Virus record (IMG/VR): IMGVR_UViG_3300020404_002809
Coordinates: 1-43,102 of that record
Length of the DNA: 43,102 bases
Direction: 5' to 3' (one strand)
Source of the DNA: a virus
Positions 2,102 through 33,950 of this stretch are shown here, one piece after another (the stretch's first letter is position 1; the number at the start of each line of letters is the position of its first letter). Both the position numbers and the translations under genes were made by a program. Under the pieces are notes generated by a model, which was not told the origin of the DNA, searched no databases, and was given only the letters and a program-made list of their open reading frames with translations.

Positions 2102-2887
2102 TTATACCTCTCTTTTATCCTCAAAAGCAATAATATGAGGTCTCCAAGTCATTCTATAACCATTATCTCTTACCCAATCAAATAATACAGGATAAGATTT
2201 AAATAATGCTTCTCTAGAATCTCCAGCAGGCATAAACCAAACTTTTTCAGGTTTAATTTCTAATTGAGCTATTGCATCCATAATTTCAGCTAATGCCCCT
2301 TGATCTTTTCCATCCCAAACAGGTTTTAAATGAAAATCTGAATGGTAAGCTATGGATTTTTTAATGGCATCCCAATTACACCTTAGCCTATTATGTGTTT
2401 TAATCATTTTTTCAGTTGTAACTTCACCTTGTGGTGTTTTTACACCCAATACTGGTATAGAATTAGAAAACTTAGGGCTAATAGATAGCAAATTAATAGG
2501 GTAATCTGTGGGTAGAAAATGACTTCCCTCAGTTTCGATAGTAATAAATATATTATTTTCATGTGCAAAGTGTGTTAATTCGTTTACTAATGCTCCATGC
2601 ATAGTAGGTGAACCTCCAGTTAACATCATTTCTGATATATGGGGGTTCTTTTTATACATTGCAATAATATCATTAAAGGTAAATTTACCTTTTTCTGCAT
2701 GAATGCTTGTATACCAACTATCACACCATCCTCCTTCACCAAAATAACATCTATGAGTACACCCTGTAGTTCTAATTACTACTGTTGGGTATCCTGCTCT
2801 GCTTCCTTCTGATTGTACTGCTGTGTATATTTCTACAATAGGTAGTCTTTTATTGTAGTCCGTAACCCTTTTTAGTTGCTTATGCAT
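2102..2887 (-). CDS. queE: 7-carboxy-7-deazaguanine synthase (QueE, radical SAM)
   Basis: 261 aa. It rearranges 6-carboxytetrahydropterin to 7-carboxy-7-deazaguanine (CDG) using SAM and a 4Fe-4S cluster. The start matches the family (PIVEIYTAVQSEGSRAGYPT, the substrate-binding 'Q-x-E-G' region). The cluster cysteines are Cys43, Cys47 and Cys55, in GCTHRCYFGEGGWCDSWYTS. This is CX3CX7C, whereas textbook radical SAM spacing is CX3CX2C, so there is a five-residue insert. A GGSPTM segment replaces the usual SAM-binding GGEP. The rest of the barrel (ISPKFSNS, FHLKPVWDG, VWFMPAG) fits QueE. Flavodoxin lies downstream and QueD upstream. Confidence 0.9.
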   Translation of the reverse strand: MHKQLKRVTDYNKRLPIVEIYTAVQSEGSRAGYPTVVIRTTGCTHRCYFGEGGWCDSWYTSIHAEKGKFTFNDIIAMYKKNPHISEMMLTGGSPTMHGALVNELTHFAHENNIFITIETEGSHFLPTDYPINLLSISPKFSNSIPVLGVKTPQGEVTTEKMIKTHNRLRCNWDAIKKSIAYHSDFHLKPVWDGKDQGALAEIMDAIAQLEIKPEKVWFMPAGDSREALFKSYPVLFDWVRDNGYRMTWRPHIIAFEDKREV

Positions 2888-2930
2888 ATTGTTAATTTTT
2901 TAAAGTGGTTTTTCATTCACTATTATACTT

Positions 2931-3395
2931 TTATTCACTATAGCTTGCTGCGTTTTTACCGTGCTCCATAAATTTCACTCTCGTTACTCTTACTCTGTTA
3001 TCGGTTTCAGCTTTAACAAAACTATTTAATTTGGTATAAATATATTCAGCAAATTTTTCCGCACCAGTAGCTGGTATTACTCTTACTTGGGCTACACCCG
3101 CAGTATCCATTTGTTTGAATGCTTCTACTTCAGGATCATCTTCTGCTACCACTAAAGTATGATCAAACATATAATCCATCCATTCTTTAGGAGACTTACC
3201 ATCTATTTTAGTTTTAGCTCTTTTCATTCCTCCAAAGTCCCAAACCCAATTTCTGTCATCTAGTTCTCCTTCAAAATAAACTTTAAATGAAATTCCATAA
3301 CCATGAACAAATCTACAGTGTGTTGTTGTTGCCTTCCATTGACGAAACACTGTACTAAATCCGTCAAATACTTTACTTGATTGAAATTTACCCAT
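2931..3395 (-). CDS. queD: 6-carboxytetrahydropterin synthase-like protein (QueD)
   Basis: 154 aa. QueD converts dihydroneopterin triphosphate to 6-carboxytetrahydropterin. The protein has the family layout: a catalytic Cys27 in THCRFVHGYG with the second zinc-ligand His31, then VYFEGELDDRNWVWDFGGMK, where the family has an acidic W-V-x-D-F-x-x-L/M segment, and a late RVTRVKFMEHGKNAA with Glu/His. The usual third ligand of the H-x-H pair is Tyr33, and the position of the first zinc His reads FRQW. This looks like a divergent phage branch rather than damage, because the frame is intact and the surrounding motif is crisp. It overlaps trx by 8 nt. Confidence 0.85.
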   Translation of the reverse strand: MGKFQSSKVFDGFSTVFRQWKATTTHCRFVHGYGISFKVYFEGELDDRNWVWDFGGMKRAKTKIDGKSPKEWMDYMFDHTLVVAEDDPEVEAFKQMDTAGVAQVRVIPATGAEKFAEYIYTKLNSFVKAETDNRVRVTRVKFMEHGKNAASYSE

Positions 3396-3636
3396 TATAA
3401 AAATCTATTACTTGTTGTTTGGAAACATTTCCTATTAATCTATTAATTTCTTTACCACTTTTATCTACTAAAACTAGAGTAGGAACATTACGAATACCAT
3501 ATTTAACTGAGGTATTTGTGTCTTCATCTACGTTAATTTTAGTAAAATTTACTTCATTGGCTACAGAATCCATAGTTGGACCTAGCATTTGACAAGGACC
3601 ACACCAAGGAGCACTAAAATATAAAATTTTCTTCAT
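3388..3636 (-). CDS. Thioredoxin
   Basis: 82 aa, a compact thioredoxin. The active site APWCGPC is at residues 9-15, and the cis-proline loop NVPTLVLVD follows at about 54-62, so both functional halves are present. It is cytosolic, with no signal peptide. Its likely partners are the phage class I ribonucleotide reductase encoded at 14.9-17.6 kb, whose NrdA has the C-terminal Cys pair needing thiol reduction, or host targets. The gene is fused tightly into the deazaguanine operon, overlapping queD by 8 nt and the upstream small membrane gene by 1 nt. A second, non-catalytic thioredoxin-like protein occurs at 9868-10197. Confidence 0.92.
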   Translation of the reverse strand: MKKILYFSAPWCGPCQMLGPTMDSVANEVNFTKINVDEDTNTSVKYGIRNVPTLVLVDKSGKEINRLIGNVSKQQVIDFYNG

Positions 3637-3833
3637 TATACTAATTCTTCAATTATACCAATTGCTTCACTTAATATAAGAACTCCTACTGCAATTGGCA
3701 CGTTATATAGTAAAAGTCCATATCCAACTATTCTAATTCCTGATTTAATAAAACTAATAACCTGATGTAACCTCTGATCAGGCATGTGTTCTAAGTTTTT
3801 TCTATCTTTTTCAATATTATTAAAATCTTCCAT
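3636..3833 (-). CDS. Small hypothetical membrane-associated protein (65 aa)
   Basis: The open frame reaches further right, into the tRNA-like element, but ATG at 3831-3833 (MEDFNNIEKDRK) is the sensible start because the longer version would be translated tRNA sequence. The N-terminal 30 residues are charged. Residues 31-60 (IRIVGYGLLLYNVPIAVGVLIL) form a hydrophobic hairpin or a single long membrane helix, ending with an acidic IEELV tail. The stop shares its last base with the thioredoxin start. No family is recognised. Many T4-like marine phages carry such one- or two-helix proteins among metabolic genes, with unknown roles. Confidence 0.65.
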   Translation of the reverse strand: MEDFNNIEKDRKNLEHMPDQRLHQVISFIKSGIRIVGYGLLLYNVPIAVGVLILSEAIGIIEELV

Positions 3834-3847
3834 ATACTTAATTTTGC

Positions 3848-3959
3848 TGACCCCGACAGGACTCGAACCTGCGACCTCCTTGACCTCTTTGCTTTTCACG
3901 ATCGTATTTATTTTGCGCCGAGTTAAGCCAAAGCGAGCTACCTACTGCTCCACGGGGCA
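3848..3959 (-). tRNA. tRNA-like element with an enlarged anticodon region (possible tRNA with insert, or pseudo-tRNA)
   Basis: On the minus strand the acceptor halves are TGCCCCG and CGGGGTC (six of seven paired). They flank a textbook D arm (GAGC-AGTAGGTA-GCTC) and T arm (GCAGG-TTCGAGT-CCTGT). The discriminator A is followed by GCA, not CCA. Between the anticodon-stem halves CTTTG and CAAGG (with a canonical 5-nt AGGTC variable loop) lie 46 nt instead of 7, about 39 nt too many. Removing 39 nt gives exactly 73 nt. CAAAG inside the insert is an alternative stem partner. No anticodon can be named, because position 33 would be C. It may be an interrupted, chimeric or decayed tRNA. Confidence 0.5.
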
Positions 3960-3964
3960 TATTT

Positions 3965-4759
3965 TTAAGCTGAGTGTTCAGCTAAAACTTCTTCAACACT
4001 TGATTTTGCAATTTCCCAATCCACAGGACCAGTTTCATCTTCATATTGCACAGGATCTTTCCTACCCAAAGCAATAAACGCCTCAATCCTCTCAACAGAT
4101 GAAGCAGATTTATAATCACTGTTCCCACTAGGAAAAGGCTTATAACTAGTATTAGTTCTAGAATAGACATCATCAAAATCAATTTTTAGTTTTGCACATA
4201 AAATTTCTCCATTTTGTAATATACCAAATTTATCTGTATCTAAATATGGAGTAAAATAACCTACTCTATCAGCATCCCAATTTCCAATTCTAAAAGCAGC
4301 ATCATCTGCATCTCTAAATTCTTGTCTACAATCAGGATAAACAGCATGATCACCTGCATGAATACCTAAGGCAATATCACAAGTCTCTCCTGTTTTATTA
4401 GCTACAGATAATGCTACTGCTTGAACTATAGAAGCAAACATTTTATTTCTATTAGGTACAACTGTTTCCTTCATATTATCTTGCTCATAATGACCTTCAG
4501 GTACATCTTTACCTCCTTCAGTTAATGCTGAATCTAATAAATCTACTAATCCATCTAGTTTAATTTGTCTATAATTTACTTTATGACCATTATCTGCTAG
4601 ATAATTAATTAACGATTGAGCTCTTTCTAATTCTACTCTGTGTTTTTGACCATAGTCAAATGAGATACCTGTTACAGTATCATATTCGTTGATAGCTCTT
4701 AACAATAGGGTGCTGCTATCCATTCCACCACTTAACGAAACTACACAATGTTTTGCCAT
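3965..4759 (-). CDS. queC: QueC-like 7-cyano-7-deazaguanine synthase / CDG-modifying ATPase lacking zinc cysteines
   Basis: 264 aa from ATG at 4757-4759 (MAKHCVVSLSGGMDSSTLLL). The open frame extends further right, but the PP-loop SGGMDSST should sit about 10 residues in, and the upstream gene stops at 4764. QueC uses ATP and ammonia to turn CDG into preQ0. Other conserved parts are present (FDYGQKHRVELERA, PNRNKMFASIVQAVALS, YPDCRQEF). The C-terminal zinc site normally built by four Cys (C-Y...C-G-x-C-x-x-C) reads TSYKPFPSGN then SDYKSASSVERIEAF: all four are replaced. The activity may therefore differ from QueC, for example a CDG decarboxylase; see findings. Confidence 0.85.
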   Translation of the reverse strand: MAKHCVVSLSGGMDSSTLLLRAINEYDTVTGISFDYGQKHRVELERAQSLINYLADNGHKVNYRQIKLDGLVDLLDSALTEGGKDVPEGHYEQDNMKETVVPNRNKMFASIVQAVALSVANKTGETCDIALGIHAGDHAVYPDCRQEFRDADDAAFRIGNWDADRVGYFTPYLDTDKFGILQNGEILCAKLKIDFDDVYSRTNTSYKPFPSGNSDYKSASSVERIEAFIALGRKDPVQYEDETGPVDWEIAKSSVEEVLAEHSA

Positions 4760-4763
4760 GTTA

Positions 4764-4961
4764 TTATAATTTAAATTTTTGCCAGGTATTATTAAGCGTA
4801 TAGGCAAACGCTGTTTTTATTTGTTTAAGTTTACACTTAAAATATAATTTAATATACGAATAAATAGTACCAATTCCAAACCCTCCTATTAAAAGAGTCC
4901 AAAGATTTGGGTGCCAATGTTCACCACAAAATCCTAATGCATGTTTTACTGCTTCTACCAT
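4764..4961 (-). CDS. Small single-pass membrane protein (65 aa)
   Basis: It begins MVEAVKHALGFCGEHWHP, followed by one hydrophobic stretch (LWTLLIGGFGIGTIYSYIKLYF, about residues 20-41) with Gly-rich packing, and a basic C-terminus. No family is recognised. It ends 4 nt before the queC ATG and starts 1 nt before the stop codon of the 54-aa gene, consistent with an operon from dpdA to queC. A strong promoter-like sequence driving queC lies inside its coding region (4849-4880). A holin-like role cannot be excluded, but its position among metabolic genes argues against it. Confidence 0.65.
   Translation of the reverse strand: MVEAVKHALGFCGEHWHPNLWTLLIGGFGIGTIYSYIKLYFKCKLKQIKTAFAYTLNNTWQKFKL
4849..4880 (-). 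promoter_or_regulatory. Host-type promoter for queC operon (P1)
   Basis: Minus strand: TTTG at 4880-4877, a 20-nt spacer ending TTCG, then TATATTAA at 4856-4849. It lies inside the 65-aa membrane gene, about 90 nt before queC. Identical spacing and the TTCGTATATT core are shared with P2, P3 and P5. Confidence 0.65.
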
Positions 4962-8581: not shown

Positions 8582-9190
8582 TTATACTATATCTTTACTT
8601 TCGATTAGGGTGTATGTAAAGGAATTACCCCAAGTATGTTTAGCTTCATTTACAATTTCCATAAATAATTTGAAATCGTTATTAGCTGCTATTACCTGAC
8701 ACCCTGCAGACCATTTATCAATTTGTGTAGATTTTTTACCTTCCCATTTTGTTGCTCTATGAATATTAATTCCATAAATCCCTTCATAAACATTTTCTTC
8801 TAGTAGATCATACTTACCGTCTTTGTTTTTGTCTCTATATACTTTAACTGGTTTTTGTTGTCTTAATGCTTCATATTTACCTTGATGAAGTCCAACTTTA
8901 TGTGACCCCCTATATTGACCAGGTTTTAAAATTGCTACTCCATTTTTATTCAATATATTTTTTTCCCAATGTGAACCTGGGTCAGTAGTAGCATCAAAAC
9001 AATAAAACTTTTCTTCTCCATCTAAATTATAAGATACTGTTAGACAGTCATCAAATTTATTAGTAACTACTCCTAGCGTGCTTGAGTTTCTTACTCCTAC
9101 AATATTTAGATTATAATTACCACTTTCAAACCATTTATATCCTTTAGTGATTACTGTGTCTTTAATTTGTTTTCTAGTATAACAACTCAT
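8582..9190 (-). CDS. L,D-transpeptidase-like (YkuD-like) protein, possible cell-wall enzyme
   Basis: 202 aa with no signal peptide. Residues 138-167 contain GINIHRATKW followed by DKWSAGCQVI: a His (144) and a S-x-G-C (Cys164) with the spacing of YkuD-type catalytic centres, preceded by beta strands. YkuD enzymes cleave or form peptidoglycan cross-links through a Cys thioester; phage versions may act as lysins or wall remodelers. An EF-hand-like RDKNKDGKYD segment lies at 119-128. It is flanked by membrane and exported proteins in the envelope block, so a lysis or wall role is plausible. The family match is by motif and is not certain. Confidence 0.65.
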   Translation of the reverse strand: MSCYTRKQIKDTVITKGYKWFESGNYNLNIVGVRNSSTLGVVTNKFDDCLTVSYNLDGEEKFYCFDATTDPGSHWEKNILNKNGVAILKPGQYRGSHKVGLHQGKYEALRQQKPVKVYRDKNKDGKYDLLEENVYEGIYGINIHRATKWEGKKSTQIDKWSAGCQVIAANNDFKLFMEIVNEAKHTWGNSFTYTLIESKDIV

Positions 9191-9193
9191 AAT

Positions 9194-9556
9194 TTATTTT
9201 CTTTTTTTAAACCTAAATATACCTTTACCTTTTTTACCCTCTTTAGCAAAGATATCTAAAGTAATACCTATAGTTAATCCTCCGTAAGTACTTGCTAGTA
9301 AATCTCTATTATCAAACCCATACCCATTTTTTTTGTCGTAGGTTTCTTTTAAATATCCAACAGCAAAAGCAGTAGCTACACTAGCTATAAAAGCTGTTTT
9401 TTTATTTTGGCTTTCTTCTAATATTATTCCGTATGCCACACTACCAATAACTGCACCAACAGCAAAGTGTTTTTGTTTATCATTTTCGGTTAATAATTGT
9501 GCGTTAGATAAAGAGAAACATAGTAGTAGTGGGATTATAAAAAATAATTTCCTCAT
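9194..9556 (-). CDS. Exported small protein, YfiM/DUF2279-like
   Basis: 120 aa. An N-terminal Sec signal (MRKLFFIIPLLLCFSLSNAQ, cleavage probably after SNA) is followed by ENDKQKHFAVGAVIGSVAYG. The D-K-x-x-H-F start with Gly-rich small hydrophobic helices resembles YfiM/DUF2279-type envelope proteins. Later segments (AFIASVATAFAVGYLKE, YGGLTIGITLDIF) are weakly hydrophobic, and the tail is very basic (GKGIFRFKKRK). It is expected in the periplasm or attached to a membrane. It overlaps the next gene (9553) by 4 nt. A spanin-like lysis role is possible but unsupported by sequence. Confidence 0.65.
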   Translation of the reverse strand: MRKLFFIIPLLLCFSLSNAQLLTENDKQKHFAVGAVIGSVAYGIILEESQNKKTAFIASVATAFAVGYLKETYDKKNGYGFDNRDLLASTYGGLTIGITLDIFAKEGKKGKGIFRFKKRK

Positions 9557-9867: not shown

Positions 9868-10197
9868 TTAAAATGCACTCATTATAAGTTCATCTATTTC
9901 GTCCTGTACTTCTTCTCTAGTTGCACTCATTTTAAAACTAATATCTGCTTGATATCTTTCAACTTCTTCTCCATCTTGGAAGACTAATATAGTTGGTACA
10001 ACTACTACTTTAAATTTTCCTGCGTCTGCGGGATTAGCCCCTATATCATACTTTTTTATTTCACAGTCAGTTAATTTATCTACCCATTCTATTTCATTAG
10101 CTGCATTCCAAGCTGCGTTAAAGTATTTAACTTCTATTTGCCCTAATAAAGGTAAACTGGTTATAAAAAGTAAAACACTTAGTATAGATTTTTTCAT
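9868..10197 (-). CDS. Exported thioredoxin-fold protein lacking the CxxC
   Basis: 109 aa. A clear Sec signal peptide (MKKSILSVLLFITSLPLLGQ) is followed by a thioredoxin-like domain. KYFNAAWNAANEIEW occupies the place where thioredoxins have WCxxC, and VVVVPTILVFQDGEEVERYQ supplies the cis-Pro strand. Both active-site cysteines are replaced (Trp-Asn-Ala-Ala), so no disulfide chemistry is expected. The only Cys in the mature part is in TDCEIKK. It should be periplasmic. A structural, chaperone or inhibitor role is inferred. It lies between an outer-membrane block and holin-like genes. Confidence 0.75.
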   Translation of the reverse strand: MKKSILSVLLFITSLPLLGQIEVKYFNAAWNAANEIEWVDKLTDCEIKKYDIGANPADAGKFKVVVVPTILVFQDGEEVERYQADISFKMSATREEVQDEIDELIMSAF

Positions 10198-10203
10198 AAT
10201 AAA

Positions 10204-10494
10204 TTATCTTAATTTATCAATCTTGTCCTCAATACGTTTCATGTCTTCTTTTAACTCCTGAACATCTTCTTGAGTTGACATAATAGTTTGACGGATTAAT
10301 TGATCTTTCATATCATATTCCATTCTTGTAACATCTGGTGGCGGGGCAATGGGTAGTTCTTTAGCCTCTGCAATATCTGCTTGTAGAGCGAACCACATAC
10401 CTACCACAGTAGCAATACCAAATGCAATACCTATTAGTGTTTGAATACTAACTGTAAAACTCGTACTTTCGCTTAATTCTTTTGACTTTGCCAT
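10204..10494 (-). CDS. Membrane-anchored coiled-coil protein (96 aa)
   Basis: One N-terminal transmembrane helix (TLIGIAFGIATVVGMWFAL, about residues 18-37) is followed by a Pro-rich hinge (ELPIAPPPDVTR) and a C-terminal amphipathic coiled coil (STQEDVQELKEDMKRIEDKI). This architecture resembles phage haemolysin/XhlA-like or inner-membrane spanin proteins, but sequence alone does not decide. It ends 6 nt before the thioredoxin-like gene and begins 6 nt after the stop of the beta-barrel gene, so it is in the same envelope operon. Confidence 0.65.
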   Translation of the reverse strand: MAKSKELSESTSFTVSIQTLIGIAFGIATVVGMWFALQADIAEAKELPIAPPPDVTRMEYDMKDQLIRQTIMSTQEDVQELKEDMKRIEDKIDKLR

Positions 10495-10500
10495 CTTTAA

Positions 10501-11568
10501 TTAAAATATTATATAATTTATTCCCATTGAAAATTTATGCCAATTTCTATTCCAATATTTACTGTAAGTACCTTCGGCAAATAACCCAAGTGATTTTGTC
10601 AATTTATGACCAAAAATTAAACCTGCTGAGTAATCAGTCCATTGGCCTCCATTATAATTATGGAAAGAAAATTCATTATTGGTGTTTATATGAATGGGCA
10701 TTATATTTCCCCAAGCATGTAACCAAAAATTCTTTGAATATTTGTAGTAATCAAACCCAGCAATCAAAGAATATTCAAATCTAAGCGGAGCTTCATCCTG
10801 TTTCTTTTCTACATAATTAACTAAAACTTGAGGAATAATAACCTCTTCCCAAACCGCTGTGCTTGTAGCAACAACATCTCCTCCTGGGTTGTAATATGTC
10901 TGTCCTCCTTGACCATCAAAGTCAACTGTATATCCTTCTTGAATAGCTAACCAAGTATAATGTAAGTTGCCATTATCTAACATCCATTCAGCTAAAGGAT
11001 CATACCCATAAGGTTGAGATAATCTTTGAGCTGCTCCTATATTAATAGAAAATTCTTTATTTATGTTATGTCTATATCTTTGAGATGCTTGAAAATATTC
11101 AATATCAATAAAACCACCAACAAGATATTCAACTTTAGCAACCCAATCTTCAGCAACATATCTTATAAAGTGGTGTTGATCTAAATAGGTTTCACCTTGA
11201 ATTCTTCTATAATCACCTTCAAATAAAAATTCAAATCCTTTTATTTTACCAATTGTAGCATTATCCGAAAAAGATTCTTCTGTACCATTATAAAATACAT
11301 TAGCTCTATTTTCATAATCAAATCTTGCAATTTTTCTTATTCCTAAAGCAACTGAATAGTCGAAAGGGGTTTCTATTACATCTGATATTAAGGTTCCTGT
11401 GTTAACTGAAAACGAATTTTGATCTGATAAAGATGTTCCACCATTTATGGCACCATAAAAAGTAGAGAATTTAAGTGTTTTCTTTAACTCCTTTTTAAAT
11501 TTTGATTCAGATTCTTGGCTAAAACCTAAAAAGGGTATAACTAAAAGTAGTATTAATAGTTTTCTCAT
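10501..11568 (-). CDS. Outer-membrane beta-barrel protein
   Basis: 355 aa. A signal peptide (MRKLLILLLVIPFLGFSQ) precedes a protein rich in alternating hydrophobic and aromatic strands with Gly/Asn turns (for example FEFLFEGDYRRIQG and YSLIAGFDYYKYSKNFWL). It ends GINYIIF, a C-terminal aromatic residue typical of BamA-inserted barrels. There is no known catalytic motif. It lies 1 nt downstream of the T9SS-signal protein gene, so the two are probably co-expressed. T9SS adhesins in Bacteroidetes often pair with PorP/SprF outer-membrane proteins, but this one is not clearly of that family. A surface-exclusion role is possible. Confidence 0.75.
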   Translation of the reverse strand: MRKLLILLLVIPFLGFSQESESKFKKELKKTLKFSTFYGAINGGTSLSDQNSFSVNTGTLISDVIETPFDYSVALGIRKIARFDYENRANVFYNGTEESFSDNATIGKIKGFEFLFEGDYRRIQGETYLDQHHFIRYVAEDWVAKVEYLVGGFIDIEYFQASQRYRHNINKEFSINIGAAQRLSQPYGYDPLAEWMLDNGNLHYTWLAIQEGYTVDFDGQGGQTYYNPGGDVVATSTAVWEEVIIPQVLVNYVEKKQDEAPLRFEYSLIAGFDYYKYSKNFWLHAWGNIMPIHINTNNEFSFHNYNGGQWTDYSAGLIFGHKLTKSLGLFAEGTYSKYWNRNWHKFSMGINYIIF

Positions 11569-11569
11569 C

Positions 11570-14470
11570 TTATTGTTTAATTATTCTTTTATTAAATACT
11601 TGACCTTCATGATTTATTGTTAGGAAATAAACTCCTGATTCTAAACCTGACATGTCAACTGTTTTTTTATTTGAATTGTTAATTATAGTTCTACCAGTAA
11701 CATCTGTTAATGAATAAGTTACATCTAAAGTAGTACCAATATTTAAAATATCATCTGTTGGGTTTGGATAAACTACAATGCTTGTAAATGATCTATTAAA
11801 CATTCCATTTATATCAAATCCATCTGGCCATCCGTTTTCACAGTAATTATACATTTCTTGACAAACTGGATCCCAATCGTTATCACAACAATAATTATCT
11901 ACATCAATTACCCAAGCATAGCATTGATCGTTTAACCAATATGGTTCACCTGGACCTGTTATACAACCAGCATCATATAAACAAGCTTCAGGATCTGAAA
12001 CATTTGCTGCTGGATCATAATTATAAGAATTAGGATCTGTACAACCTACTACTGCAGTAATACAACTACCATTATCTACATTTGCTTCAGGATCGTAATT
12101 TACTGATTCTGGATCTGTACATCCATATACTATTGGTATACAAGGATTTGTAAAATCTGTAGCTGATACTTGATTTACGTTTGCTTCTGGGTTATAATTG
12201 AATGATTCCGGATCCATACACCCATAAACAAATTCTTGACATGATCCATTATCTGTATTTGCTTCAGGATCATAATTAAATGAATTAGGATCTGTACAGC
12301 CATAAACTACTGGTTCACAAGAACCATCATCCGTATTAGCATCTGGGTTATAATTAAATGAAGTTGGGTCAGTACATCCTTGAACTACTGGTATACATTC
12401 TCCAGCTGTATTTGCATTTGGATTATAGTTAAATGCTAATTCATTCATACAACCTTCTATAACTGGAATACAATCTCCCGCTGTATTAGCTTCTGGGTTG
12501 TAATTAAATGATTCTGGGTCCATACATCCTACTACTACTTCTTCACATGAACCATCATCTACTGTAGCATCTGGATTGTAATTAAATGCTAATGGATTCA
12601 TACAACCTTCAATATAAGGTATACAAGAACCATCATCTACGTTAGCTTCAGGATTATAGTTTAATGAACCTTCAGTCATACACCCTTCTACTATTGGGAT
12701 ACAAATATCACCACAATAAGGTAGAGCTGTATATGTTATAAAGAATGGCGATTCAAAATTTTGTAAAGCACCTTGTCCATTATTTTCAAATGGATTTTCT
12801 CCTTCACTAATTAAAATTTCTCCATCTGCACCTTCTATAATAAATGAATTATGCCAAGTTTGGAATTGTACTTCTTGAGGTGTTGATTGTGGACCTCCTA
12901 CTTGGAAATAATAAACTTTAATTTCTTCAGAGGAAGATAATTGTAGTGGGAATGTTTGTTCATACTCTCCAGGTCCCATAGTATAAGTACCTAGTGGAAC
13001 ATCACCTTGAGATACACCTAAATACGAATTACCCCAACCATCTCCAGCTGCATCTTTAATTATTAAAGTATAATCACAAACAGGAATTAGTTCTTGTTTT
13101 GTAGCATCTGGATTGTAGTTAATTGAATTTTCATCTGTACACCCTACAATATGAAGCTCAGTACATGAACCATCATCTATAGTAGCTTCTGGGTTATAAG
13201 ATTGGTATGCTGGGTCTGTACAACCATAAATTTCTTCTACTCCTTCACATTCAACTCCAAACTGTTGACCTGAGTAAGCTACTTCTCCAAAATCAGGATC
13301 CAATTCCCAAATTAAATCCCCATTACAATCATAAATTCTTACTGAACCATCTAAAGTTCCACCTGAAGTAGAACCAGCTAAACCATCTCCATAGGTATCT
13401 GTAATTATAAATTCAAATCCTGCGTTTTTGTCAACACAGAAATTATAAGTATAAGTTTGACCTATATCATTATAATCATAAGTTCCATCTTGTTCCTCTC
13501 CAATTACACCATAAACACCACTTGTCAAAGACCATCCTGTTTCACTTGGCCAATTATCAAATGTAATTTCTACTGTAATTTGATCTGTTACTTCTGTATC
13601 ACAAGTAGTACCAGAACATGAACCATCGTCTACGTTTGCCCATGGATTATAAGACTCAGAATTTGGATCTGTACAGCCTTCTATACATGGTTCAGGTGTA
13701 TAAATTATTGGCTCTGATTGGGTACCATCTACAAAGTTAACTATTAATTGATGTTCTACACTCCAATTAGGAGGCATTTGTCCATAACCTGCATAAACCC
13801 CAAAATTTACTGCATCAGGGGCTACTTGGTATGTGAATGGACCTGCTCCCTCTACATTAGAATATTCAACAGATTGAATTTCACATTCAGTTCCCCATTC
13901 AAAAACTATTAAAGCTTGACCTCCATCTAAACATTGTTGGTAAGCATTAGTTGAAGTTAAACCATCTACACAAGGTTCTGGGGGGCAAGGGGCATTACCA
14001 CATATATTAAAACAATGAGTTAATTTATATTCTCCTGTTGGATTAACGTAAGTACCGTTATCTATTAATTCTTGTGGTACTACTATATCTCTTACCAAAC
14101 CTCCTGCGAGGCCAAATTCACTTGGTGGGATAGTACAGTCTTCTAAATCTACATTTGATCCTCCTTCCCAAGCTGTCCAGGGTAATCCATTATTGCCAAA
14201 GGATGTAATTTTAAATCTATAAAATACATCTATGTTTTCGTCTGTAGGATGATTTATATTAATAACTTTTCTCCATATTCCATTTCCCCCAACATCTTCC
14301 ATTGGAATATCTACCCAGTTAGAAACATTAGTTTGGATAAATACCTGCATTTGATCAGGGTTGGGAACATTAAGTTGCTCAGTATCTAATCTAAAGGCAA
14401 CTGGGGCTGTTTCTTGGGCTATACCTAGAAAAGGTAAGGCTAAGCATAACCATAGTAATAATTTTTTCAT
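11570..14470 (-). CDS. Large secreted repeat protein with T9SS C-terminal sorting domain
   Basis: 966 aa. An N-terminal Sec signal (MKKLLLWLCLALPFLGIAQ) is followed by a beta-rich domain of about 240 residues. Twelve Cys-containing repeats of about 21-23 aa follow, each like GCTDPNSFNYDPEANTDNG, the last Cys closing the repeat. Two longer beta domains are interposed (after repeats 1 and 3). The C-terminal ~75 residues (SIVVYPNPTDDILNIG, LESGVYFLTI, FNKRIIKQ) match the type IX secretion sorting domain: a Y-P-N-P start, then G-x-Y, then a basic end. Host T9SS would export and anchor it at the cell surface. A late-type promoter motif precedes it. Confidence 0.88.
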   Translation of the reverse strand: MKKLLLWLCLALPFLGIAQETAPVAFRLDTEQLNVPNPDQMQVFIQTNVSNWVDIPMEDVGGNGIWRKVININHPTDENIDVFYRFKITSFGNNGLPWTAWEGGSNVDLEDCTIPPSEFGLAGGLVRDIVVPQELIDNGTYVNPTGEYKLTHCFNICGNAPCPPEPCVDGLTSTNAYQQCLDGGQALIVFEWGTECEIQSVEYSNVEGAGPFTYQVAPDAVNFGVYAGYGQMPPNWSVEHQLIVNFVDGTQSEPIIYTPEPCIEGCTDPNSESYNPWANVDDGSCSGTTCDTEVTDQITVEITFDNWPSETGWSLTSGVYGVIGEEQDGTYDYNDIGQTYTYNFCVDKNAGFEFIITDTYGDGLAGSTSGGTLDGSVRIYDCNGDLIWELDPDFGEVAYSGQQFGVECEGVEEIYGCTDPAYQSYNPEATIDDGSCTELHIVGCTDENSINYNPDATKQELIPVCDYTLIIKDAAGDGWGNSYLGVSQGDVPLGTYTMGPGEYEQTFPLQLSSSEEIKVYYFQVGGPQSTPQEVQFQTWHNSFIIEGADGEILISEGENPFENNGQGALQNFESPFFITYTALPYCGDICIPIVEGCMTEGSLNYNPEANVDDGSCIPYIEGCMNPLAFNYNPDATVDDGSCEEVVVGCMDPESFNYNPEANTAGDCIPVIEGCMNELAFNYNPNANTAGECIPVVQGCTDPTSFNYNPDANTDDGSCEPVVYGCTDPNSFNYDPEANTDNGSCQEFVYGCMDPESFNYNPEANVNQVSATDFTNPCIPIVYGCTDPESVNYDPEANVDNGSCITAVVGCTDPNSYNYDPAANVSDPEACLYDAGCITGPGEPYWLNDQCYAWVIDVDNYCCDNDWDPVCQEMYNYCENGWPDGFDINGMFNRSFTSIVVYPNPTDDILNIGTTLDVTYSLTDVTGRTIINNSNKKTVDMSGLESGVYFLTINHEGQVFNKRIIKQ
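11979..13685 (-). repeat. Twelve degenerate tandem-type repeats coding for GCxDPxxxNYNPxAxxDxGxC units
   Basis: Within the 966-aa gene. Units share G-C-(T/M)-(D/N)-P-x-(S/A)-x-N-Y-(N/D)-P-(E/D)-A-(N/T) and end in Cys. Nine units are contiguous near the 3' end of the gene (about 11979-12695); the others are separated by larger domains, at about 13130-13210 and 13620-13685. The DNA is similar but not identical between units, so expansion by duplication followed by drift is likely. Each unit has two Cys, which could form one disulfide per repeat. Confidence 0.85.
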
Positions 14471-32962: not shown

Positions 32963-33256
32963 TTATTTATAACTAGTTTTATTTTGGAATTGGGGGGAAG
33001 ATACTTTACCATCTTTTCCAATTAAGGATTTTTTGCCTTTCCCTTCCCTTGCTCTTTTAAGAGATTCTGTTTCTTCTTTATAGAAATCAGAAATTAATTT
33101 AAAAGTATATTTACGAAGCCAAATAGGCATATTATAAACAGTAGGCCAATCATACCCACCTTTACCATGGAATACTATTTCATGTATTTGTCTAAATAAA
33201 GATTGTCTTTTTTCACTAGCCGAGATCAACGTCAGGCCAAAAAAACTTAATCCCAA
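32963..33256 (-). CDS. Tail assembly chaperone C-terminal extension (probably read by frameshift)
   Basis: A 97-codon frame with no ATG near its beginning: its longest open start is TTG at 33254-33256, inside the gp26-like gene, and the first ATG is 43 codons in. It overlaps the gp26-like end by 41 nt. Its body (KRQSLFRQIHEIVFHGKGGY, then WPTVYNMPIWLRKYTFKL) resembles downstream frames seen beside gp26-like genes. Relative to the gp26 frame it is +1 (= -2). A T7 run (33239-33245) at the junction allows P-site TTT to slip to TTT. I read it as a programmed frameshift product; an independent gene starting at TTG is the alternative. Confidence 0.6.
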   Translation of the reverse strand: MGLSFFGLTLISASEKRQSLFRQIHEIVFHGKGGYDWPTVYNMPIWLRKYTFKLISDFYKEETESLKRAREGKGKKSLIGKDGKVSSPQFQNKTSYK

Positions 33257-33950
33257 TGGGGATGTTAACCCGCTTAGTTCCGTTTTCGGGAAAAAAAGTC
33301 AGATCTATGTCTGGTTGGGTTTGAAGAATATTTTCTCTTAATGCCCGAGCATCTCGAGCTAATAAATAATTATCAATAAAATCCCTTACTGTTTTTCTTT
33401 CAGAATCTCCTTCAACGGATTGAATCATATATTTTAGTCTAGTAGTAGCTTCAGGTACATTATTTTTATCAATTTTTTGTAAACCTTTTAATTCATTTTG
33501 AATTTTAATTTCATCTCCATTAGTAAGTAATTTATAAGTAACCACATTACCTGAGTGAGGCAATGTAAAATTAAAATTATTTCCATTAGTATATAGACTT
33601 TCATCTAATTCTTTATCTTCTAATTTAGATAAATCTACACTATATTCTTTCCCATTATATTCATAGGTATAATCTTTACCATAACCTAAAACTCTAGCAG
33701 CTACCATTACAGCATTTTTATCTCCAATTAATAATTCACTCCAATTAAATTTAGTTACTACTAATGCTTTTAATACCCTGTCAATTACAGACCCATCAGT
33801 TATATAAGCTGAGTTAGTAAGGATATCTTCTTCTTTAGCTGTCATGTATTTCATCTCAATTGTTCCACTTGCTAATGGGTGGTCTTTAGGATATAAAAGT
33901 CCTTTTGAGGGAAGTGATACTGTTTCTGTGGGTATTTTAAATTCGGCCAT
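33216..33950 (-). CDS. T4 gp26-like baseplate / tail chaperone protein
   Basis: 244 aa. It begins MAEFKIPTETVSLPSKGLLY, followed by PLASGTIEMKYMTAKEEDIL, a well-known N-terminal pattern in T4-like baseplate gp26 (T4_baseplate family). Later ALVVTKFNWSELLIGDKN and FIDNYLLARDARALREN are helical. It ends with IPIGIKFFWPDVDLG. The 3' end carries the T7 slippery run and the overlapping second frame, so both a short and an extended product may be made. Its transcript begins at the late-type motif 33980-33991. Confidence 0.8.
   Translation of the reverse strand: MAEFKIPTETVSLPSKGLLYPKDHPLASGTIEMKYMTAKEEDILTNSAYITDGSVIDRVLKALVVTKFNWSELLIGDKNAVMVAARVLGYGKDYTYEYNGKEYSVDLSKLEDKELDESLYTNGNNFNFTLPHSGNVVTYKLLTNGDEIKIQNELKGLQKIDKNNVPEATTRLKYMIQSVEGDSERKTVRDFIDNYLLARDARALRENILQTQPDIDLTFFPENGTKRVNIPIGIKFFWPDVDLG
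33239..33245 (-). promoter_or_regulatory. Candidate frameshift slippery site (TTTTTTT)
   Basis: On the minus strand the gp26-like frame reads AAG TTT TTT TGG and ends 7 codons later at TAG. A +1 slip of the P-site TTT, or a -2 slip, leads into the 97-codon frame at GGC CTG. All codons in the slip are homopolymer, so re-pairing is perfect. Position immediately upstream of the tape measure gene matches G/GT-type tail chaperone arrangements. Confidence 0.55.

Follow-up and report, generated by a model that had tools for sequence, protein, structure and literature searches.

Results

Cargo protein

The DNA analysed here, positions 1 to 43,102 of the IMG/VR virus record IMGVR_UViG_3300020404_002809 (the window), carries on its minus strand a gene for a large Cys-rich protein that begins with a secretion signal and ends in a type A sorting domain of the type IX secretion system (T9SS). 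This gene, the cargo gene below, is followed by one for a predicted outer-membrane beta-barrel and then by genes for small membrane or secreted proteins and an endolysin-like protein (Table 1). The same 43-kb window encodes ribonucleotide reductase (RNR), DnaB, an exonuclease, a gp32-like protein, a tail sheath and a baseplate hub, all phage genes. An earlier note, made from the sequence alone, had placed at 11570-14470 a phage-encoded T9SS cargo in a Bacteroidetes host; the coordinates are exact, the gene is a single minus-strand open reading frame (ORF) of 966 residues, and its product is confirmed as a type A cargo. The note had viewed this protein by itself, and in that respect was too narrow: the gene is real, and it belongs to a conserved module, missed by the note and often located by lysis genes, whose other members are the barrel, a pseudo-thioredoxin and a membrane protein with a coiled coil.

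The cargo protein consists of a Sec signal (residues 1-19), a variable N-terminal domain (~21-160), conserved central domains (~161-585), a conserved Cys-rich cap (833-884) and the T9SS C-terminal domain (CTD, 900-966), and it contains 45 Cys. Its signal, MKKLLLWLCLALPFLGIAQ, reaches its hydropathy maximum at residues 4-22 and ends in AQ, matching the Q rule described for Bacteroidetes signals (PMC10367356; this and the other papers are cited from excerpts); both properties agree with the Sec signal that had been read from the sequence. A signal end of the form '[AGSTC]Q' occurs in all 54 distinct complete cargo homologues and in 61 of 1091 other ORFs of >=100 residues at the same loci, as counted with a home-made pattern, not SignalP. 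Between residues 265 and 832 lie 12 Cys-rich repeats with the consensus GC(T/M)xxxx..Y(N/D)PxAxxDDGSC; three occupy the earlier part and the other nine form a tandem array, and they start at residues 265, 416, 443, 596, 622, 648, 673, 698, 724, 750, 783 and 809. Twelve is also the number given in the note; some of the repeats are without part of the consensus, and stricter counters give 11 and 10.

The identification of the CTD is far beyond chance. Profile searches matched PF18962 at residues 900-964 (E 7e-14, 52.3 bits against a cut-off of 27) and TIGR04183 at residues 900-966 (E 4.6e-13, 49 bits against a cut-off of 23), the latter bearing out the sorting domain that the note had proposed. 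A match to 8glk_D, a T9SS substrate CTD whose structure was determined in the secretion complex, was obtained by phmmer (E 9e-4) and, with the modelled CTD, by Foldseek (TM-score 0.79 on the target, root-mean-square deviation 2.3 over 75 columns, 28% identity). The AlphaFold model of the whole cargo is poor (predicted local distance difference test, pLDDT, 60), and only the CTD row of the Foldseek search was used; fibronectin-like and other rows were set aside. Pfam recognised no adhesin or carbohydrate-binding domain in the cargo, and a PHROGs search names neither the cargo nor the barrel.

Relatives of the cargo were found in 30 viral contigs by one pattern search, and in one of these, a 119-kb contig (L002), the cargo region is near-identical to the window. 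TIGR04183 matches 20/20 sequences in an alignment of the window with 19 of the 30 loci, the remaining loci being fragments or copies, and the repeat number in this alignment varies from 9 to 19 by one counter. Mean pairwise identity is 37% in the N-terminal domain, 61-75% in the central part, 66% in the tandem repeats, 80% in the cap and 49.5% in the CTD. In a larger set, of which 36 of 54 complete cargos were usable (18 lacked the anchor motif and were dropped), the N-terminal part is likewise the most divergent, at 0.40 versus 0.67 for the central part and 0.49 for the CTD. Swap-like pairs of N-terminal domains number 7 of 561, two more cargos having been dropped because their N-terminal part was too short. 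This divergence and the apparent swaps fit a part of the protein that may be under host- or rival-driven change.

These properties bear on whether the cargo might be a virion component, a fibre or decoration in which the CTD serves only for multimerisation or attachment. A similar repeat, a GCTD...NY-type stretch, occurs in a protein of Synechococcus phage S-CAM3 (L032:5569-7119; 56.5% over 46 residues), so a cargo-like repeat is found in other phage proteins; this one is annotated as a virion structural protein, lies among tail genes and is the sole support for particle coating. Against a place in the virion stand the Q-rule signal of every complete homologue, the CTD of every aligned sequence and the position of the cargo gene, which comes after RNR, adjoins a signal-bearing outer-membrane barrel and is ~19 kb from the nearest structural gene recognised by PHROGs (33216-33950), with three large unmatched ORFs between. 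We regard a virion role as very improbable.

The sorting domain is nearly always present once per phage genome. TIGR04183 found one tag in 27 of 28 phage records and two in one 245-kb record, whereas four bacterial bins searched in the same way gave 15, 21, 42 and 56 matches; this argues for a dedicated gene and not host carry-over. Because 27 viral records were chosen for length from 106 viral loci found via cargo or barrel, the presence of a tag is partly due to selection, but its single copy is not. A tblastn search of phages with the CTD alone returned 12 records, the best at E 7e-3 and the others weaker. The best match, weak and full-length (28.8%), lies in an unannotated 642-kb uncultured phage (LR756502.1, 325931-326140) and could represent a further phage T9SS cargo.

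A Bacteroidota bacterium is very probably the host: the cargo has a T9SS tag, three module proteins carry Q-rule signals, and the closest isolate is Flavobacterium phage immuto (NC_055915.1; RNR 70% and sheath 52% identical), which has a T9SS cargo gene of its own a short way past RNR. As a caveat, TIGR04183 matched two control genomes, one of them non-Bacteroidota (Deinobacterium chartae), and was above the cut-off in one of the two. We assume that the IMG/VR records of the module are mainly marine.

Outer-membrane barrel

The AlphaFold model of the barrel (pLDDT 72) has many long strands, and NanC, FapF and OmpG are among its top Foldseek matches. In a VIA-align comparison, the 50 best rows are almost wholly outer-membrane-type barrels at Z 8.4-11.7; chain F of 8gl6, from a T9SS complex, is found at Z 9.0 amid many other barrels in that range. 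The window barrel matched no NCBIfam model at E<=1, and a profile search of the Protein Data Bank (PDB) gave nothing at E<=10. When 24 barrel members were compared with NCBIfam, weak matches to six families were obtained, none of them PorP/SprF or PorV, for which NCBIfam presumably contains models. Q-rule signals are present in 79 of 81 barrels of the clade that accompanies the cargo (the cargo clade), versus the 61 of 1091 other ORFs given above.

An alignment search found at least 554 barrel relatives in viral contigs, 80 of which were fetched. Among cellular genomes, peptide patterns located the barrel in 4 contigs of a collection of 84,980 bacterial and archaeal species, and a profile search of 395 genomes from a single order located it in two, one being the bin used as centre. 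No relative was found by tblastn against 50,697 phage records. In three other barrels (L011:11808-12905, L015:13102-14187 and L021:3147-4211), a lipobox-like Cys-rich N-terminus (SCAAPKxCCxQ) replaces the plain signal, and these may be lipid- or disulfide-linked.

The resemblance of the barrel to CymA, OmpG and KdgM-type porins raises the idea of a phage porin with an auxiliary metabolic role, in which the barrel would take up nutrients that the cargo captures at the surface. We consider this highly improbable: the likeness is generic only, lysis genes are close, and the pseudo-thioredoxin and coiled-coil protein would be hard to place in a simple porin.

Partner genes

The genes downstream of the barrel are listed in Table 1 together with a small gene just upstream of the cargo.

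Table 1. Genes and features of the cargo locus, in window coordinates
Feature	Position	Strand	Basis and remarks
Endolysin-like protein	8582..9190	minus	phrog_33083 endolysin, phrog_3000; homologues in crAss-like and other phages
120-residue protein, signal-like N-terminus	9194..9556	minus	Weak DUF2279 match, below cut-off
88-residue protein, two predicted transmembrane helices	9553..9819	minus	Holin-like in size and topology only; no PHROG
Secreted thioredoxin-fold protein, CXXC replaced (FNAAWNAAN) (pseudo-thioredoxin)	9868..10197	minus	Profile searches
96-residue protein, one transmembrane helix (19-37), C-terminal coiled-coil-like stretch	10204..10494	minus	Coiled coil and N-in topology by eye
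Outer-membrane beta-barrel, Q-rule signal peptide	10501..11568	minus	One base downstream of cargo; model and fold search
T9SS type A cargo, 966 residues	11570..14470	minus	One ORF, ATG start; sorting-domain profiles and alignment
T9SS type A sorting domain, coding region	11573..11773	minus	TIGR04183 E 2.3e-16, 55.4 bits; fold match 8glk_D
Small protein, two predicted transmembrane helices	14559..14828	minus	Just upstream of cargo; candidate module member

The fold of the pseudo-thioredoxin can be recognised from sequence, with PDB thioredoxins matched by profile at a best E of 3e-8. Its score against PF00085, 22.2 bits, is slightly below the cut-off of 23.5, and that of a relative on contig L118, 27.3 bits, is above it. 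In the cargo clade and the cargo-less clade described below, a profile gave 135 distinct matches, four of which are canonical WCxxC thioredoxins without a signal. At the CXXC site the remaining 131 have NXXN in 113 cases, another Cys-free pair in 10 and no pattern match in 8, and a Q-rule signal is present in 69/69 members from the cargo clade and 61/62 from the cargo-less clade. The window also encodes an ordinary WCGPC thioredoxin (3388-3636). The pseudo-thioredoxin poses a puzzle, in that a fold is retained and its chemistry lost in a protein made next to one with 45 cysteines.

The endolysin-like protein matches the endolysin family phrog_33083 over residues 44-187 (E 1e-18) and phrog_3000, of unknown function, better; it has no match in Pfam or the PDB. 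A YkuD-like site suspected by eye is unsupported because of the missing PDB match. In two other records, the endolysin domain lies inside long open frames of 1292 and 1197 residues (L035 record G015:C1:7508-8101 and L007 record G004:C1:94841-95383), possibly virion-associated lysins.

Conserved neighbourhood

The cargo is a conserved family in a fixed module, not a stray acquisition. Of the distinct viral loci, 37 extend >=5 kb to either side of the barrel, and in every one of them the cargo lies within 5 kb of it; 23 of these loci had been fetched by the barrel alone and 14 through the cargo, and the other 44 of 81 distinct barrels were left out of the count. Within the same distance are the pseudo-thioredoxin at 34 loci, the coiled-coil protein at 33, the two-helix protein at 20 and an endolysin or holin cluster (each named from one representative) at 26. 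Cargo and barrel share a strand in 99 of 99 pairs and are separated by -4 to +19 bases in 75 of these, a set in which loci of one contig are duplicated and three loci belong to bacterial bins. The CTD is present at 99 of 110 barrel loci of the cargo clade.

The phages that carry the module differ in their backbones. Most cargo-bearing loci have in common with the window only the genes that surround the cargo, and at two loci (L025, L029) the order of the module genes is altered with the genes still together. A tail sheath was matched in 16 of 28 records and a terminase in 14, some of these matches being weak; several sheath-less records have a holin of the gene transfer agent (GTA) type near the module. 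In such loci, the two genes checked are a DNA polymerase B match below the cut-off (L006) and a class II RNR (L073). Bacterial contamination was considered and rejected, given these sheath and terminase matches, the single T9SS tag in 27 of 28 records and the rarity of the barrel in bacterial genomes. One module contig (L112), among the four from the species collection, was assigned to a bin titled Candidatus Nitrosopelagicus, a thaumarchaeal name; it is probably a misbinned phage, because the only T9SS match of the bin is on the module contig itself.

Barrel loci without cargo

The second of the two barrels from the search of 395 genomes, 32% identical, is encoded on L118, a phage contig that also has genes for a P22-like portal and a GTA-type holin. 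It is accompanied by coiled-coil (40%) and pseudo-thioredoxin (28%) partners, and a peptidase M15 gene upstream overlaps the start of the barrel gene by 4 bases. The contig has no T9SS match. Barrels of this type have 150 relatives in viral contigs, and the counts for this cargo-less clade refer to 81 loci, namely 80 of these viral ones (L121-L200) and L118. The pseudo-thioredoxin is found at 76 of them, the coiled-coil protein at 73 and the M15 family, named from one member, at 69, mostly directly downstream of the trio of barrel, coiled-coil protein and pseudo-thioredoxin. Within the two clades, barrels share 0.49-1.0 and 0.53-1.0 identity, compared with 0.29-0.39 across clades. The presence of the trio without a type A cargo indicates that the trio is the wider unit and that the cargo is confined to one clade. 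The NXXN pseudo-thioredoxin (window 9868-10197; L118:7677-8087) has been kept in both clades, whose barrels are only ~34% alike. An RNR-like gene family occurs nearby in 35 of the 81 cargo-less loci.

Discussion

That a cargo tagged for surface export is encoded next to a viral outer-membrane barrel points to a remaking of the host cell surface by these viruses during infection. From the computed signal, CTD, barrel fold, thioredoxin fold without CXXC and conserved neighbourhood we infer, with a probability of roughly 0.45, that the cargo is exported by the host T9SS, forms a surface complex with the barrel and remodels the surface against adsorption; the proposed export, exposure, complex and purpose are drawn from sequence, models and co-conservation. 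Made during infection of a Bacteroidota cell, the cargo would enter the periplasm via Sec and cross the outer membrane by the host T9SS through its type A CTD, for which profile and fold both speak strongly. It would then stay on the cell surface or be shed, with the Cys-rich repeats as a stalk and the variable N-terminal domain presumably outermost. The barrel, made at the same time and destined for the same membrane, would most likely hold or guide the cargo or form a surface complex with it, and the coiled-coil protein and NXXN pseudo-thioredoxin, judging from their co-conservation, may support this complex from the inner membrane and periplasm. The most likely purpose would be that neither other phages nor the phage's own progeny adsorb to the remodelled cell. 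Because PorV, PorQ or PorP/SprF can serve as the cognate barrel of a known T9SS cargo (PMC10202324), and the adhesin SprB is carried by SprF (PMC12635249), a partnership of cargo and barrel is plausible.

Several of our results weigh against such remodelling. The CTD is variable too (49.5%), and the variability of the N-terminal domain is thus not unique. At 11 of the 110 barrel loci the CTD was not seen, and all 11 have <5 kb on one side. The function of the barrel cannot be read from its modelled fold, as porins, BamA/TamA-type proteins, autotransporters and the T9SS chain score alike, and no library searched, NCBIfam and PHROGs among them, names it. In the cargo-less clade, the profile found a type A CTD at 0 of 81 loci and TIGR04183 matched 0 of 30 whole records picked from the 80; a search for the type B CTD (PF13585) was uninformative, its control being without a match. 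Since the trio occurs without cargo, it cannot exist solely for the cargo, which argues for a function of its own. Finally, the endolysin or holin cluster at 26 of the 37 loci fits a role in lysis as well.

Such a role would be in envelope-stage lysis, with the trio bridging the membranes in the manner of a spanin and the T9SS cargo weakening the outer membrane or freeing progeny. Besides the neighbouring lysis clusters, the M15 peptidase family of the cargo-less clade, overlapping the barrel start in L118, is consistent with this idea, as are the N-terminal transmembrane helix and the coiled-coil-like tail, seen by eye, of the 96-residue protein; that protein, however, matches no spanin family in Pfam or PHROGs. 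Among the 21 records possessing an endolysin, its distance to the CTD is <6 kb in 15, ~10 kb in one and >30 kb in five that have no sheath match, so the lysis genes are often, though not always, close by. Nor is a lengthy stalk of repeats that ends in a tag for surface sorting an obvious component of a lysis system, and we consider lysis as the main purpose rather unlikely. A broader formulation, which we hold tentatively and as less likely than not, is that the barrel, coiled-coil protein and NXXN pseudo-thioredoxin form a previously undescribed, transferable envelope machine that works with lysis genes, and that one large clade has coupled it to the host T9SS via a dedicated cargo, for exit or for exclusion.

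Phage-encoded T9SS cargo has already been published. Cryophage likewise has proteins with T9SS type A sorting domains, reported there as three variable genes (endoglucanase, GH39, PA14) in one cryoconite phage and termed a unique occurrence (PMC7468147); the cargo described here, in contrast, forms a single conserved family that recurs across many viral contigs together with its own barrel and partner genes. The BACON protein of crAss-like phages also has a T9SS sorting domain, with other T9SS sorting-domain proteins nearby, and differs in having BACON repeats beside head genes, with no barrel module described in the excerpt cited (PMC6949934). Clustering of a T9SS cargo gene with an outer-membrane barrel gene is known from SprB/SprF and PorV-like carriers (PMC10202324, PMC12635249), where the CTD of SprB is type B and SprF is of the PorP/SprF family, whereas the CTD here is type A and the barrel is without an NCBIfam model. 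Judged by analogy, the nearest counterpart in kind is the phage curli module (CsgGF, type VIII secretion system) of the marine pelagiphages and Melnitz, which likewise alters the host outer membrane or surface and has moved between viral families, and for which superinfection defence, sibling capture and lysis timing have been proposed (PMC9599517, PMC9004378). In that case the phage brings the secretion pore itself and infects hosts of another phylum, whereas here the T9SS of the host would be used.

Sibling capture has a counterpart in a further reading of the cargo, as a surface adhesin that would attach an infected cell to particles, glycans or cells not yet infected and thereby increase contact with new hosts. 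The stalk-like repeats, the variable N-terminal domain and a T9SS tag as in gliding adhesins are consistent with it, an analogous proposal has been made for phage curli (PMC9599517), and immuto carries secreted C-type lectin and cohesin proteins at the equivalent place. The cargo itself has no adhesin or carbohydrate-binding domain recognised by Pfam, and we think adhesion unlikely to be the purpose.

In the open-licence literature of PubMed Central, we found no description of the cargo-barrel operon or of an NXXN pseudo-thioredoxin, and what is new within the literature searched is the operon as a conserved unit, its dedicated barrel and the pseudo-thioredoxin. Phage T9SS cargo, earlier an oddity, here emerges as a trait that is conserved along with a fixed group of partners. 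If the cargo is indeed surface-exposed, it would offer a handle on how phages of Bacteroidota alter the surface of their hosts and get through the outer membrane, as well as a one-gene marker that ties uncultured phages to T9SS-bearing hosts.

Immuto, an isolated phage with homologous RNR and sheath, has one TIGR04183 match in its genome. Shortly after its RNR (L115:9935-13422) lies a run of genes for proteins with signal-like starts, among them a C-type lectin, a nuclease and a protein that combines cohesin with a T9SS CTD, and the phage could serve as a culture model; its domains differ from those of the window, and no homologue of the window cargo or barrel was found there. A likeness of immuto gp017 to CsgG, noticed by eye, was not supported by Pfam at E<=0.05. 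Elsewhere in the window, at 2102-4807, genes that by eye resemble a queuosine/7-deazaguanine pathway (a QueC-like gene at 3965-4807 and its neighbours) are present, and QueC is annotated in immuto.

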